Shown: positions 14,681 through 21,142 of the stretch, in pieces
Numbering within the stretch: position 1 is the first letter of the stretch
Layout of the letters: every line of letters begins with the position of its first letter
Source of the DNA: Agarivorans sp. TSD2052
Lineage (GTDB): Bacteria > Pseudomonadota > Gammaproteobacteria > Enterobacterales > Celerinatantimonadaceae
DNA length: 64,000 bases
NCBI RefSeq assembly: GCF_023238625.1
Contig: NZ_CP096670.1
Span: 2,469,501-2,533,500 of the forward strand
Direction: 5' to 3'
The notes under the pieces: model-generated
What the model saw: only the letters and a program-made list of their open reading frames with translations
Databases searched by the model: none
What the model was told of the DNA's origin: nothing
Program-made: the position numbers and the translations under genes

Positions 14681-14716
14681 ATGAAAAGTATGGGTAATTT
14701 AATATCTTATAAGATT

Positions 14717-14830
14717 GGGTGGCAACCCTACCAGCCACATCCCGGCACTCGAGTCGTCTGCTGCGGTTGCTCCCTTCCGGGCCTGGCCGAGTTCACAGAG
14801 TATCAATGCGGGAGGACCAATAGGGCCACC
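14717..14830 (-). ncRNA. ffs: 4.5S RNA, signal recognition particle RNA (bacterial small type)
   Basis: Read on the minus strand, 14830 down to 14717 gives a 114-nt RNA, the same length as E. coli 4.5S RNA. The ends pair (5' GGTGGCCCTA with 3' TAGGGTTGCCACC, a small bulge). The centre carries the universally conserved SRP domain IV hairpin with a GGAA tetraloop and the asymmetric loop (GGCCCGGAAGGGAGCAACC). The segments CCTCCCGCA and TGCCGGGATGTGGCTGG also match the E. coli molecule. It binds Ffh to target membrane proteins co-translationally. A leader of about 22 bases between promoter and mature 5' end agrees with RNase P processing as in E. coli. Confidence 0.95.
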
Positions 14831-14858
14831 ATAGATGAGCTTCCGAAGAAGCGAGGCC

Positions 14859-14887
14859 ATTCTCGCCTAAGCTTTCATGTTTTGCAA
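14859..14887 (-). promoter_or_regulatory. Predicted promoter of the SRP RNA gene
   Basis: On the minus strand TTGCAA (14887-14882) and GAGAAT (14864-14859) are 17 bases apart, followed by a GC-rich stretch (GGCCTCGC) of the kind found in stringently controlled stable-RNA promoters. Start would be near 14852, leaving a 22-base leader before the mature RNA end at 14830. Confidence 0.5.
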
Positions 14888-15673
14888 TCGCTAAAAAGCT
14901 TTTTTCGACCTGCATCAGGTTTGTTTGCTCAAGTTTTAATCCTTATGAGTTTAATTTCTTCTCCGGTTGCGATTGCTGAAACGTTTGACCACTCAAACTG
15001 GGACAATTTACTGAACGAGTATGTCCATTGGCCAGTAGCCAACCAAGAAAGCCGAGTTGATTACGCGAACTTTGACCAAGCCAAGCTAGAACAATACTTA
15101 GATACAGTCGCAGCGATTCGCCAGCAACAATTTAATGCTTGGGGTGATGATGAACAATTGGCTTTTTTAATAAATGCTTATAACGCCTATACAGTACAAT
15201 TCATTTTAACCGCCTACCCTAACATCAACTCAATACGTGACTTGGGTAACTTATTTCAGTCTCCATGGAAGAAAAAACGTTTTTCCTTGTTTGGTGAACA
15301 AGTCAGCCTAGACCATATTGAGCACCAGCTGATCCGACCGGTATATAACAATCCGCTAATTCATGCAGCGGTAGTATGTGCGGCTATTAGCTGCCCGCCT
15401 TTACAAAGCGTTGCCTACACCGGTGAACAACTTCAACAGCAACTCAGCCAAGCGTTTAGGGCATTTTTGCGCAGCAACAAGAACTATTACGATCCGACGA
15501 GCAAAAAGCTTAAGTTATCGTCGATATTTAAATGGTACAAGGATGACTTTGGCAATGACTTAAATCTTTATTTAAGCCAATATGCCGAAGACTTGAGAGC
15601 TGAAGCCAACATCATCGAGCAGGCTTCTGTCAGCTACTTAGATTACGATTGGTCTCTCAACGCTTACCCATAG
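14882..15673 (+). CDS. DUF547 domain protein, probably exported
   Basis: Conserved uncharacterised family. The DUF547 core includes LAFLINAYNAYTVQFIL, then GNLFQSPWKKKRFSLFG and the Cys-containing HAAVVCAAISCPPL, and ends with YLDYDWSLN. A signal-peptide-like segment (hydrophobic LFAQVLILMSLISSPVAIA) precedes the mature part. The start is uncertain. The ORF is open from ATG 14681 with a good AAGGA site, but codons 13-50 from there are the exact antisense of the SRP RNA, so that N-terminus is very probably spurious. TTG 14882 gives 263 residues with a normal basic-then-hydrophobic signal peptide, though no clear ribosome site. ATG 14945 is a shorter alternative. The DUF547 call is firm, the start is not. 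Confidence 0.75.
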   Translation: MQSLKSFFRPASGLFAQVLILMSLISSPVAIAETFDHSNWDNLLNEYVHWPVANQESRVDYANFDQAKLEQYLDTVAAIRQQQFNAWGDDEQLAFLINAYNAYTVQFILTAYPNINSIRDLGNLFQSPWKKKRFSLFGEQVSLDHIEHQLIRPVYNNPLIHAAVVCAAISCPPLQSVAYTGEQLQQQLSQAFRAFLRSNKNYYDPTSKKLKLSSIFKWYKDDFGNDLNLYLSQYAEDLRAEANIIEQASVSYLDYDWSLNAYP

Positions 15674-15737: not shown

Positions 15738-16700
15738 TTAAAACAAGCACTTAGATAGGTTATATAACTCTTCGTTAAATGGACGTTTCATGTTTTCGAT
15801 ACAATCAATAATATCGTGATGAACCATGGTGTTATTTTGTATACCAATACAACGCCCACCCTCACCTTGCATTAACAACTCAACGGCATAAGCACCCATT
15901 CTACTCGCCATAACACGGTCACGACCAGTTGGCGTGCCGCCACGTTGAATATGACCAAGAATGGTTGCTCTGGTTTCACGACCAGTGGCCATTTCAATAC
16001 CAGCAGCCAACTCGTTCACGTTAGTGATGTGTTCGGTAATAGCAATAATTGCGTGTTTTTTACCTTTTTTCTGGCCATCTTGTAAGCTGTTAAGCAGCTC
16101 TTCGCGATTAAAACCTTTCTCTGGAATAATCACATATTCTGCACCGCCAGCAATACTAGCTTGCATGGCTAGATCACCACAGTAACGCCCCATAATTTCA
16201 ATAACAGAAATTCGGTTATGCGAAGATGACGTATCACGAATACGGTCAATGGCATCAATCACTACATTTAGCGCAGTATCAAAACCGATGGTGTAATCGG
16301 TGCCAGCAATATCATTATCAATAGTGCCTGGAAGGCCAATGCAGGGGAAGCCCATTTCAGTTAGCTTTTTAGCGCCCATGTATGAACCATCACCACCTAC
16401 CACCACTAAGGCTTCAATACCGTGTTTTTCTAGGTTTTTAACTGCGACTTCACGTACCGCAGGATCTTTAAATTCAGGGAAGCGTGCAGACCCCAGAAAA
16501 GTACCGCCACGATTTATCACATCAGACACACTGTAACGATCTAACTTCTTAATATTATCGTCATGTAACCCCATGTATCCATCGTATACACCGTATACTT
16601 CAATGCCTTGAGACAAAGCACTACGTACTACAGCGCGTACCGCTGCATTCATACCAGGAGCGTCGCCACCACTAGTTAAAACACCAATTTTCTTAACCAT
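15738..16700 (-). CDS. pfkA: PfkA, ATP-dependent 6-phosphofructokinase
   Basis: Glycolytic enzyme making fructose 1,6-bisphosphate from fructose 6-phosphate and ATP. Visible motifs: nucleotide-binding [17 protein letters not shown] at the N-terminus, GGDGSYMGA near residue 102, catalytic TIDND near 125, and [10 protein letters not shown] near 168. Of the two adjacent ATGs the second (16700) is preferred because GAGG lies five bases before it; that gives 320 residues, exactly the E. coli length. I found no convincing Cra operator upstream, unlike E. coli pfkA. Confidence 0.96.
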
Positions 16701-16703
16701 CAT

Positions 16704-17157: not shown

Positions 17158-17277
17158 ATGAAGTCTGACCTTCAATATGCAATCGAACGTAACATTAAAA
17201 CTAACCGCCAAGCGGTGATCAACTATAACTTGTTACGCCAGCAAGAGCGTAATCTTTCCGATGAGGCTCAGCCCTAA
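17158..17277 (+). CDS. Small hypothetical protein of 39 residues
   Basis: Too short for most ORF callers but has all gene signals: a possible extended -10 promoter, an AAGGGA ribosome site six bases before ATG, and a strong terminator 31 bases after the stop. The product begins MKSDLQYAIERN and continues with a polar, basic, probably helical middle (NRQAVINYNLLRQQERN) and an acidic tail. There is no membrane segment or signal peptide and no Cys. I do not recognise a family. It could be a small regulatory or protein-binding peptide. Confidence 0.6.
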   Translation: MKSDLQYAIERNIKTNRQAVINYNLLRQQERNLSDEAQP

Positions 17278-17308: not shown

Positions 17309-17332
17309 AAAAAGGGGCTGAAGCCCCTTTTT
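17309..17332. terminator. Bidirectional terminator after the small ORF
   Basis: GGGGCT (17314-17319) pairs with AGCCCC (17322-17327), flanked by A-run and T-run, so it can end both the small ORF transcript and the decayed gene on the opposite strand, whose stop lies two bases away at 17335. Confidence 0.88.
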
Positions 17333-18487
17333 AGTTATTTGGCATCGTCCACCGGTTCGTTAGCATGCAACGATGTAGACAAGCTAATCACCCCATTAAC
17401 GTTATTATCTAAAGACAAAATATTAGTTTTGCTGATCCGATGACGATAGATTTCACGTAAATGCTAAATCGCATTCTTAACGCTTTTAACGTGTAAGCGG
17501 ATATCGTTAATCGAAAAAATTTGTTCGGCTCACCAATCAACTCACGATATTTCTTCTCATACATCGGCTTAATTGCATACCAATTGGTATCCAATATTTT
17601 CGCTGGATTTTCAAACTCCAACAAAAACTTTTGTAGCTCTTCAGGGTCAAACTCATCTTAGGTAATAAAGCGCAAAATAGCTTGGTCTATATCATCGTTG
17701 TAGCGATATTCTTCTTTGGCGAAAGCGCTTAATGTAAGCCACTACCAGCGTTAAAAAGTCGTCACTTAAGCAAGGGCTTTTAGCCACTAGAGTAGTTAAC
17801 GACAAGTTAGCTGAGGCACCAATAACTAAGGCATAACGTTTTAGCGTTGTATTAGGGAACAACGTATTGATATGAATTTTTAGTTTATTCAGATCCATAA
17901 ATGACAGTTTATAGTCTTTAGGTAACGAAATAATTGAAATAACCGACGAGCGGTGCTTAAAGAAGTGTAGTTCGTTGAGTTCCTCTGCATCATAATTGCT
18001 TTCTTGATACTTATTTAATGACTGCTTATAACGTTGAGATTCAATAGGTAGAATGCTGATACCTTCAATAGCTTGGGTATCACGGGTGAAGTGCGGAAAA
18101 TCAATCGTTCTAAAGAACAACTCATCGATGTTTACATCATCATTGACTGATTTATTTACGACACTTTCTGCGTAGGCTACAGGCCCAGCCATGCTCATGA
18201 ATAAGTCGTTAGCACCCAAGCGGACTGTTTCAGAAATATCTATACCCGCGCGGCGGGAATAGTTTTCATCGTAGTCTGTGGTCACTGCTTTTGCGGTCAA
18301 GATATTAAAAATTTGCTGAGAGATATATTGGTTGGCATATTTCTCAATGGTATTGACGTTTATGTCTTTGCCATTCTCACTTTCTTCTTGCTTTACATAA
18401 CGCATGATATCGTTATGTAGAGCATCATAGAGTTCCAAGGGAGGATCCGCCTCATGACATCTTCAGGAGAGTCGTTGCTTTCGCGTT

Positions 18488-19120
18488 CTACATTACTATT
18501 TTATGAAGAATTTTTAGCCATTCTTTGGCAATGAGCATATGTCCCGTATAGGATGGATGTACACCATCACCAGCCCAAAAGCTTGGTTCTCTATAGACTG
18601 ATGCCTGATTCATAATACCGTCCAATGGTAGTAAGTGAGCATCAAATTCTCGTGCTAATTCTCTTATGACATTAATCTTTGGATCTAAGTCTTCTCTCCA
18701 CTTAATTCTATCCTCTGGATAAGGTAAAACAAATGGTTCTACTATTATAATTTTAGCGTTTGTTTTGTCTTTAACCTGTAATAGTATATCTTTATAATGA
18801 TTTCTGAATGTTTCAATACTGATTGGATCATTATCATCATACCTTCTCCAACAATCATTTATACCGACAAATATTGAAACCACTGATGGGTAAAGAGCCG
18901 TACAGTCTTCTTCCCAACGATTTTTTAAATCAATAACTCTATTACCACTAATCCCTCTGTTTAGAAATTGTATATTTCGCTCTGGCTGTTCTGAAATAAA
19001 CATTGACGCCGCCATCATTGCATATCCATGACCTAAATCAAATCCATCTTCTTTATTTCTATCTGCATCTGTAATACTATCCCCTTGAAACAATATAGTT
19101 ATTTTATCTTCTGGGTTCAT
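18488..19120 (-). CDS. SGNH/GDSL-family hydrolase (probable esterase), recently acquired
   Basis: An intact 210-residue protein with the SGNH blocks in order: block I FQGDSITDADRN (catalytic Ser near residue 15), block II Gly in NRGISGNRV, block III GINDCW (Asn), block V DGVHPSYTGH (Asp-x-x-His). No signal peptide, so cytoplasmic. Relatives that I recall are common in Firmicutes and often deacetylate carbohydrates, but the substrate is inference. A strong GGAGG site precedes ATG 19120 by eight bases. It lies inside the broken tubulin-like gene, in AT-rich DNA unlike its neighbours, and is the only undamaged gene there, which suggests transfer and possibly selection. Confidence 0.83.
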   Translation of the reverse strand: MNPEDKITILFQGDSITDADRNKEDGFDLGHGYAMMAASMFISEQPERNIQFLNRGISGNRVIDLKNRWEEDCTALYPSVVSIFVGINDCWRRYDDNDPISIETFRNHYKDILLQVKDKTNAKIIIVEPFVLPYPEDRIKWREDLDPKINVIRELAREFDAHLLPLDGIMNQASVYREPSFWAGDGVHPSYTGHMLIAKEWLKILHKIVM

Positions 19121-19154
19121 AAGTTACGCCTCCATTATTTTTTATCACCTATTC

Positions 19155-19430
19155 TTACTTCTTAAAAACTTCATCAAATTTGTCCGTTATATGTTTTGGA
19201 ACAATTTTAGAGTAAGAGTAAGAATAATATAACCGAACAAAATACTTAGAATCCATTGACTTAAGCATACCAAGCTCTTCAATGGAACCAACACCTTCTA
19301 CAACTACTGCTTTTCCCAATGAGATTAACATATTTATAAATTCACGAAGCATTAACTTTGAATATTCGCTAATTTTAACAGGATCCATTGTTTGTTTTCA
19401 CAGTCGAATAATATCAATATTTTCAAAAAA
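19155..19430 (-). pseudogene. Remnant of an EAL-domain (c-di-GMP phosphodiesterase type) protein
   Basis: Minus-strand reading gives FFENIDIIRL, then a TGA, then KQTMDPVKISEYSKLM, followed by GKAVVVEGVGSIEELGMLKSM and a final YYSYSYSKIVPKH. This is the last third of an EAL domain: the DIIKLDK-like strand with the key Asp replaced by the stop, the AEGVE loop and the QGYYYSKP-like end. The EAL signature and most of the domain are missing. Further fragments up to about 19540 may belong to it in other frames. No function is expected. It precedes the SGNH gene by 34 bases on the same strand and probably travelled with it. Confidence 0.55.
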
Positions 19431-20226
19431 CTCGCTTCTTTAAAATAAATATTGATAGTGAAATTTTCAATATAAGAAAAACCCCACTCTTCATAAAGGT
19501 ACTTACACAACAATCTACCGGCATTAATATGCAAGGCTTCTTATACTTCAATGCAGTTACCTGAGATGTTGGGCAAGATAAAAATACCCGAAGTGAAGAT
19601 AGGTTCAAACACAAAAGAGTCGCGTTTATCAGACTAGATAGACTGAGAAACTTGGTAGTCGAAAGTTTTACTTAAGTATGAAAATTGTTGAGCTAATCCA
19701 AATTCTGAAGCCATACCAGAACCTGTTCCACCGCCCGCACTAAAGATATAGAAATACAAGCGCGATCGGTTAGCTTTAATCCCACAAGAGTCTACTAAGT
19801 AAGAATGAATATGACGCCAATCTTCGTTTATAAAGCTTCTGGTGTGTTTATTCAAAATGGTTTTGGCAAGGTATTGTCCCAAAATTGGCGCGTTACCAGC
19901 ACCACCTGCATGCACTTCAGACAAGTCCATCAACTGAAGCTTTTTGTATTCATCTAAGAACTTTTGACGACCCGCTTGCGAGGAGTATTTGATTCGACCA
20001 GCGATATCTTTGTCCAAGTCACCAACCAACACCACCGGTTCAATTAAAAACGCAGGGTTGTCAGCGTTGCCACGATCTAATGGTAAATGGTTTTTGATCC
20101 AACGCATCGGTTTAAATTCACGCTCTGCGCAAACTGGTCTTGATACTCAATTTCATTGAGATAGTGAGTGCGCGAGTTATAAAGCAGAGTGGCGACATCT
20201 AGAGCAATGTTTGAGCCGCAGCGACC

Positions 20227-20252
20227 AAAAAAAAGGCGCCTGTTGGCGCCTT
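20227..20252 (-). terminator. Rho-independent terminator of the suc operon
   Basis: On the minus strand AAGGCGCC-AACA-GGCGCCTT is followed by an eight-T run. It lies 18 bases after the sucD stop. The tubulin-like remnant begins at its last T, so the deletion that removed that gene's 5' end stopped at this terminator. Confidence 0.93.
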
Positions 20253-20269: not shown

Positions 20270-21142
20270 TTACCAGCCGGTAATTTCACGGAGTGCTTTG
20301 CCTATATCGGCTAAGCTACGAACCGTTTTCACACCCGCATCTTCTAAGGCAGCAAACTTATCTGCTGCAGTACCTTTACCGCCAGCGATAATGGCACCAG
20401 CGTGGCCCATGCGCTTGCCAGGAGGAGCTGTAACACCCGCGATGTAAGATACAACAGGTTTAGTTACATTGGCTTTAATATATGCCGCAGCTTCTTCTTC
20501 CGCACTACCACCAATTTCGCCAATCATTACGATGGCTTCGGTTTTAGGGTCGTTTTGGAACATTTCTAGAATGTCGATGAAGTTTGAACCAGGAATGGGG
20601 TCCCCACCAATACCAACACAGGTAGATTGGCCGAAACCTTCATCTGTAGTCTGCTTAACCGCTTCATAAGTGAGTGTACCAGAACGTGATACGATACCCA
20701 CTTTACCTGCTTGATGAATGTGACCAGGCATGATGCCAATTTTACACTGATCAGGCGTGATAACACCTGGGCAGTTAGGGCCAATCATACGTGCACCGGC
20801 TTCATCTAGCTTCACTTTCACGTCAAGCATATCTAAAGTTGGGATGCCTTCAGTAATAGTGATGATGATTTTAATGCCTGCAGCAATGGCTTCTAAGATA
20901 GCGTCTTTACAAAATGGCGCGGGTACATAGATTACTGTAGCATCAGCGCCAGTAGCTTGTACTGCTTCACTTACGGTATTAAATACAGGCAGACCTAAAT
21001 GCGTTTGACCACCTTTACCAGGTGATACACCACCCACCATTTGGGTTCCGTACTCAATCGCTTGTTCTGAGTGAAAAGTACCCTGTCCACCCGTGAAACC
21101 CTGACAGATCACCTTGGTATTTTTGTCGATTAAAATGCTCAT
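20270..21142 (-). CDS. sucD: SucD, succinyl-CoA ligase alpha subunit
   Basis: The 290-residue alpha subunit of the TCA-cycle enzyme that turns succinyl-CoA into succinate with nucleotide triphosphate formation. CoA-binding Rossmann motif [14 protein letters not shown] is near residue 14, and the phospho-His loop [14 protein letters not shown] near residue 246 carries the catalytic His. E. coli SucD has 289 residues. Its ATG overlaps the sucC stop by one base (TAATG), so the subunits are coupled. Confidence 0.97.

Follow-up and report, generated by a model that had tools for sequence, protein, structure and literature searches.

A decayed tubulin-superfamily gene, most probably of the FtsZl2 family, between sucD and pfkA of an Agarivorans genome

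The interval between sucD and pfkA on the minus strand (approximately positions 17338-20228) of the 64,000-nucleotide stretch of Agarivorans sp. TSD2052 DNA analysed here, hereafter the window, is virtually certain to be a decayed gene of the tubulin superfamily. The whole set of observations is best explained, in our judgement with good confidence, by a pseudogene of FtsZl2, a stand-alone protein of the tubulin/FtsZ superfamily. The flanking genes, which we take to be sucD and pfkA, were named from their sequences and from the preliminary description, which had placed the ruin between pfkA and the suc operon. A pseudogene by itself represents ordinary gene loss; the interest lies in the family behind it.

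Upon blastn comparison with the intact gene of a congener (genome G003, locus L003), two collinear blocks were identified, each of about 79% DNA identity, the first aligning window positions 20228-19471 with nt 161-919 of the congener gene and the second aligning 18495-17404 with nt 918-2019. The tail of the remnant below 17404, down to about 17338, was detected by tblastn only. The remnant is 90% identical in amino acid sequence to the congener protein across 221 residues, and both GGGTGSG and GRCGSN, the two motifs previously noticed on the minus strand, are present in the window copy (Table 1). Together with the lesions described below, the collinear blocks bear out the preliminary description of this interval as a ruined tubulin/FtsZ-superfamily gene between pfkA and the suc operon.

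Table 1. Features of the decayed locus in the window
Feature	Position	Strand	Basis or remark
FtsZl2 5' remnant, codons ~54-306 of the 695-codon congener gene	19471-20228	-	Alignment to G003
FtsZl2 3' remnant, codons ~306-695	17338-18495	-	blastn; below 17404 tblastn only
GRCGSN, end of presumed T1 nucleotide-binding loop	20209-20226	-	Sequence motif
GGGTGSG, superfamily T4 phosphate-binding signature	19715-19735	-	Sequence motif
Presumed T7 loop (RLDANDL in intact relatives)	18202-18222	-	Assigned by eye
Insert, 975 bp, 32% GC, 2-bp (TA) overlap at ends	18496-19470	-	blastn block junctions
GDSL/SGNH hydrolase ORF, open; last codons within host gene	18488-19120	-	Lipase_GDSL_2, 77.9 bits (cut-off 32.9)
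Fragment like EAL-domain C-terminus	19155-19388	-	PF00563, 18.2 bits (below cut-off 31.3)
sucD (presumed), upstream neighbour, frame open	20270-21142	-	ORF
pfkA (presumed), downstream neighbour, frame open	15738-16703	-	ORF

The 5' end had been reported as lost, and indeed the first 53 or so codons are missing together with most of the upstream sequence; the interval between sucD and the remnant is 41 bp, versus about 215 bp in the four congeners compared, and the terminator-like hairpin of sucD now abuts the remnant. The reading frame is disrupted by four frameshifting indels of 1-2 bp, in agreement with the earlier estimate of at least four, and a 6-bp in-frame deletion was also identified. 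In-frame stops are present as described, but four were counted instead of three. A total of 347 positions are invariant across 37 intact relatives (37 of the 77 available), and 18 of the 329 covered by the remnant differ, one being a stop, versus none in each of three congeners outside the alignment. The changed residues include the Asp of the presumed T7 loop, invariant in the 37 intact relatives and replaced by Gly in the window copy. The open pieces surviving in the region encode 157 and 248 aa.

The frameshifting indels, being of 1-2 bp, are of the kind produced in long-read assemblies, and sequencing or assembly errors can make an intact gene look broken. As a control, 59 ORFs of at least 150 aa were taken from 80 kb of the congener genome G001, and 28 of them had a counterpart in the window at more than 60% identity. 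By script, 23 of these counterparts were scored intact and five broken, and in four of the five broken ones the only stop falls among the first 9-16 aligned residues; we attribute these to starts called too far upstream in the congener. By that reading, 27 of the 28 comparable window genes are sound and FtsZl2 alone is broken. Since the remaining 27 read through, an assembly fault is extremely unlikely; moreover, the low-GC insert, the 5' deletion, the four stops and the 18 changes at invariant sites are not errors of the indel type.

The insertion noticed at the outset was confirmed as a clean insert between the two blocks, with a GC content well below that of the gene remnants (38-41%) and of the window (44%). 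No second copy of the insert was found in the source genome and no relative of its GDSL ORF in 98 other genomes searched. The GDSL ORF matched 17 plasmid records, the best with 48-50% identity and from Listeria, while the EAL-like piece gave no match among plasmids. The TA ends would fit a transposon, but neither terminal inverted repeats, sought by eye, nor a transposase was found, and this origin was rejected. The insert looks like a stray fragment of foreign DNA that was acquired while the gene decayed or later.

The strength of selection on the intact gene was estimated from the congeners. The dN/dS ratio of FtsZl2 is 0.006-0.014 (13 of 15 pairs with computable dS, several of them near saturation), and that of the control genes pfkA, sucA, sucC and sucD is 0.005-0.032; the ratio of about 0.01 shows very strong purifying selection on the intact, stand-alone gene FtsZl2. 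Three-point arithmetic with the window, G003 and G006 gives the window branch a dN of about 0.040 for the FtsZl2 remnant, 0.028 for pfkA, 0.023 for sucA, 0.014 for sucD and 0.006 for sucC. Relative to the distance between G003 and G006, these values correspond to 0.040/0.037 for FtsZl2, 0.028/0.020 for pfkA and 0.014/0.008 for sucD, so that FtsZl2 is not clearly faster than the flanking genes on this branch. Relaxed constraint is thus concluded from the lesions together with the changes at invariant positions, the rate not being among the grounds. Most of the window branch was probably spent under constraint, with a recent loss; dS is too saturated to date it.

The lack of clear acceleration would also agree with a locus reworked for use, in which the GDSL enzyme, or the pieces of 157 and 248 aa, would serve functions of their own; both pieces retain open frames, as does the GDSL ORF, which matches its Pfam family well. 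This reading is nevertheless improbable, because the start and most of the upstream sequence are gone, both remnants contain frameshifts and stops, the presumed catalytic Asp is changed, and the slow rate fits recent decay equally well.

A whole copy in relatives had been suggested, with the pfkA-suc interval as the place to look, and intact FtsZl2 is indeed located between pfkA and sucD in all six congeners as well as in both genomes of genus g4. The 157-aa piece matched 13 other genomes among 60 searched (its own included), with E-values of 8e-98 to 2e-67, all 13 with open frames of 687-746 aa. Among 12 genomes of the family, 10 carry an intact gene, one a broken gene (the window) and one no gene (G007); the 10 intact frames, out of 11 family genomes besides the window, are 687-697 aa long and include those of all six congeners. 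The identity to the G003 protein is 96% in Agarivorans sp. Toyoura001 and 84% in Aliagarivorans marinus. An extra ORF separates FtsZl2 from sucD in G003 and the two g4 genomes. In genus g3, FtsZl2 adjoins pfkA in both genomes, with a topoisomerase-like ORF (named by eye) on the other side, and in G007, from another genus of the family, sucD adjoins pfkA with 608 bp between and no FtsZl2 (L162, 8277-10732). Given the adjacency to pfkA across genera and the losses in G007 and the window, the ancestor of the family probably had FtsZl2 beside pfkA, with two or more losses since. A search of the source genome for a second FtsZl2 locus found none, and thus no intact replacement copy.

Two other ORFs near the locus were observed. 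One of 39 aa (17158-17277, plus strand) points towards the FtsZl2 remnant and is followed by a stable terminator-like hairpin (17309-17332, z -3.2). It is present in all six congeners with 74-79% identity over 35-38 residues, was not found in the other loci searched and has no Pfam match; it is possibly an undescribed small-protein gene. The other, of 330 aa, is located beyond pfkA (14681-15673, plus strand) and shows 65-77% identity in six congeners, in which pfkA and sucD are 93-98% identical; it is therefore a fast-evolving neighbour.

The patchy distribution attributed to such proteins was also observed. At the level of the order, 31 of 394 genomes gave a match, and 29 of these contain open frames of 687-792 aa, the exceptions being the window and G862. 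Matches were found in two of 369 genomes of a class sample and eight of 398 of a phylum sample, the window included in both. In a collection of named species, 509 stretches encode a relative, of which the best 80 were kept; an ORF was obtained by filter from 77 of these 80 loci, and the other three (L062, L075 and L076) were dropped from later counts. The gene of G862, which belongs to another genus, is a second ruin (L170, 6622-7099), consisting of C-terminal fragments with stops and a frame change; FtsZl2 is intact in G434 and G871 of the same genus. FtsZl2 was lost more than once, in the window and in that genus. Upstream of the G862 ruin is an ORF that by eye resembles pyruvate kinase.

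In a quick tree of the 77 proteins, with SH-aLRT support only and with a program warning that long branches meet where the two sides join, Agarivorans, Aliagarivorans and Marinomonas were placed on one side of a split with support of 100, and Colwellia, Rheinheimera, Pseudomonas and the three other Paraglaciecola on the other. Paraglaciecola marina nests in Marinomonas within a clade of 12 rows (support 99). This arrangement suggests that FtsZl2 may have moved between lineages.

The preliminary description had also raised the possibility of a multi-gene system with partner genes. A total of 1124 ORFs, up to 8 kb on each side of the 80 loci, were clustered and counted over 17 genus groups (labels taken from record titles). 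FtsZl2 itself aside, no neighbour family occurs in more than seven of the 17 groups, and since none is widely common, the idea of partner genes is unsupported. The two widest clusters (seven and six groups) are loosely chained with varying offsets, and 7 of the 11 families found in at least three groups are confined to Rheinheimera, Alkalimonas and Arsukibacterium. A link to c-di-GMP genes was considered from one loose cluster, at differing offsets in six of the 17 groups, in which such proteins were recognized by eye; it was judged to be no more than chance would yield for genes so abundant. One intact FtsZl2 protein (L016) was tested against PADLOC and PHROGs and fell into no family of either. 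By tblastn this protein matched nothing in plasmid and phage collections, blastn of the window stretch gave nothing in plasmids, and a scan of IMG/VR gave no relative, none of its 70 pattern matches being confirmed. A mobile or defence role is not favoured. Consensus patterns for sigma-54, sigma-28, LexA, Fur and CRP gave no hit in the 300 bp before the 77 ORFs, the starts being those of the longest ORF and some of them misplaced.

The assignment to a family was approached through profiles, signature and published description. All six intact proteins tested match Tubulin_2 (PF13809) and Tubulin (PF00091) weakly, with best E-values of 0.0012 and 0.0016, respectively; the first congener protein scores 16.1 bits against the Tubulin_2 cut-off of 27 and 13.4 bits against the Tubulin cut-off of 33. 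Similarity to Tubulin_2, for which the preliminary description had proposed a search, was thus detected, but below the cut-off, and FtsZl2 is favoured over Tubulin_2/FtsZl1. DUF6562 matched three of the six proteins (best E 0.00076, 19.5 bits, below the cut-off of 25); its E-value for the first protein is better than those of Tubulin and Tubulin_2, all three being below cut-off, and it was taken for chance. NCBIfam gave a single weak match in one of the six proteins (E 0.052). The source genome encodes one canonical FtsZ elsewhere (PF00091, 171.8 bits), and the decayed gene is therefore not the division FtsZ.

The signature GGGTG(S/T)G of loop T4 is present in the window copy and in 77 of the 80 loci. 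An exact DNA pattern for it was scanned in two Pseudomonas, one Marinomonas and one Agarivorans genome, and the 12 matches comprise four FtsZ genes (one per genome), four FtsZl2 candidates (one per genome) and four unrelated frames. The unrelated frames are all in Pseudomonas, where a reversed control pattern is equally frequent (9 and 3 matches). Since there is one non-FtsZ gene with the signature per genome, it is the sole FtsZl2 candidate in these four genomes, although a diverged signature would escape the scan. A canonical FtsZ thus stands beside this protein in the source genome and in the four genomes scanned.

FtsZl2 was described with PFL_1302 of Pseudomonas fluorescens Pf-5 as the type (Makarova & Koonin 2010, PMC2875224). 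In the legend to Figure 1 of that paper, Marinomonas and Chromobacterium are, by our reading, given beside FtsZl2, the text being silent on this point. The protein is described there as containing T1, T4, T6, T7 and helix H7, as having no consistently associated genes, and as predicted to form filaments. Passages of a 2023 survey (PMC9871819) set aside the divergent Tubulin_2 group and do not contain the name FtsZl2. As whole words, FtsZl2 and PFL_1302 were found only in the 2010 paper within the literature searched, work under other names being possible. From the signature and the published description, the family is highly probably FtsZl2. The pseudogene is an addition to a known family that, judging from this search, is uncharacterised.

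An intact FtsZl2 of about 695 aa would bind GTP through T1 and T4 and assemble into a head-to-tail polymer, in which each T7 loop would complete the GTPase site of the adjoining subunit; the C-terminal 290 or so residues might form the contact of the filament with cargo, partner or membrane. In the lineage of the window, the protein would have become dispensable, the start been deleted and the 975-bp piece taken in. The candidate T1, T6, H7 and T7 stretches, assigned by eye, are highly conserved in the relatives, and RLDANDL, the candidate for T7 at residues 398-404, is invariant; for T7, only the presence of the loop is given in the 2010 paper. That the ancestral protein worked as a GTP-dependent filament apart from cell division appears somewhat the better reading. 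As an alternative, intact FtsZl2 could be a GTP-binding switch or scaffold that forms no filaments. No evidence of filaments was found, similarity to FtsZ beyond the G-box was not recovered with the profiles used, and the stretch beyond the presumed T7 loop is some 290 residues long. With hhalign at default settings, 30 proteobacterial FtsZ proteins could be aligned over nine G-box residues only (E 0.0068, probability 5.6%), and a profile search of solved structures gave no real match, only one chance ribosomal match (E 0.9). AlphaFold models of the full intact protein (37 sequences, mean pLDDT 39.9) and of residues 40-430 (38 sequences, mean pLDDT 35.2) were unusable, probably because the input sequences are about 70% identical or more. 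The switch or scaffold is nonetheless rather unlikely, as the T1, T4, T6, T7 and H7 elements and the filaments predicted for FtsZl2 (PMC2875224) speak for polymerization, and the extreme conservation of long stretches is compatible with a polymer, but also with other multi-surface proteins.

The family might tentatively be regarded as a self-sufficient, partnerless and horizontally moving cytoskeletal gene of the tubulin type, near-invariant where kept and repeatedly gained and discarded as a whole, a view that we consider possible but doubtful. FtsZl2 would then be a conditional cytoskeleton, tied to some particular mode of life that the natural intact/null pair in Agarivorans could help to identify. 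The source species is a natural "knock-out" of FtsZl2, whole copies being retained at the same place in close marine relatives. Strongly conserved and related to tubulin, yet dispensable in some species, FtsZl2 is a good target for study.

Among the known systems, the gene resembles FtsZl2 in the superfamily signature, the long C-terminal part, the stand-alone organization, the presence beside a canonical FtsZ and the occurrence in Pseudomonas. In the 695-aa congener protein the part beyond the presumed T7 loop is about 290 residues long, compared with about 300 aa, of mixed alpha/beta nature, in the FtsZl2 criteria, which also specify the lack of a coiled-coil domain; the likeness of this part is one of length only. 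It differs from the typed FtsZl2 in that the window copy is decayed, with no intact reading frame, and Agarivorans is absent from the main text of the FtsZl2 paper (PMC2875224). With FtsZl1/Tubulin_2 it shares the superfamily and a weak Pfam match, but that match stays below the cut-off, and the gene, alone between pfkA and sucD in Agarivorans and with no widely shared neighbour, appears unlike the vWA/GTPase operon of FtsZl1 (PMC2875224). The G-box motif and the presumed GTPase activity are as in canonical FtsZ, from which the protein differs in its length (695 aa versus less than 400 aa) and in its PF00091 score below the cut-off.
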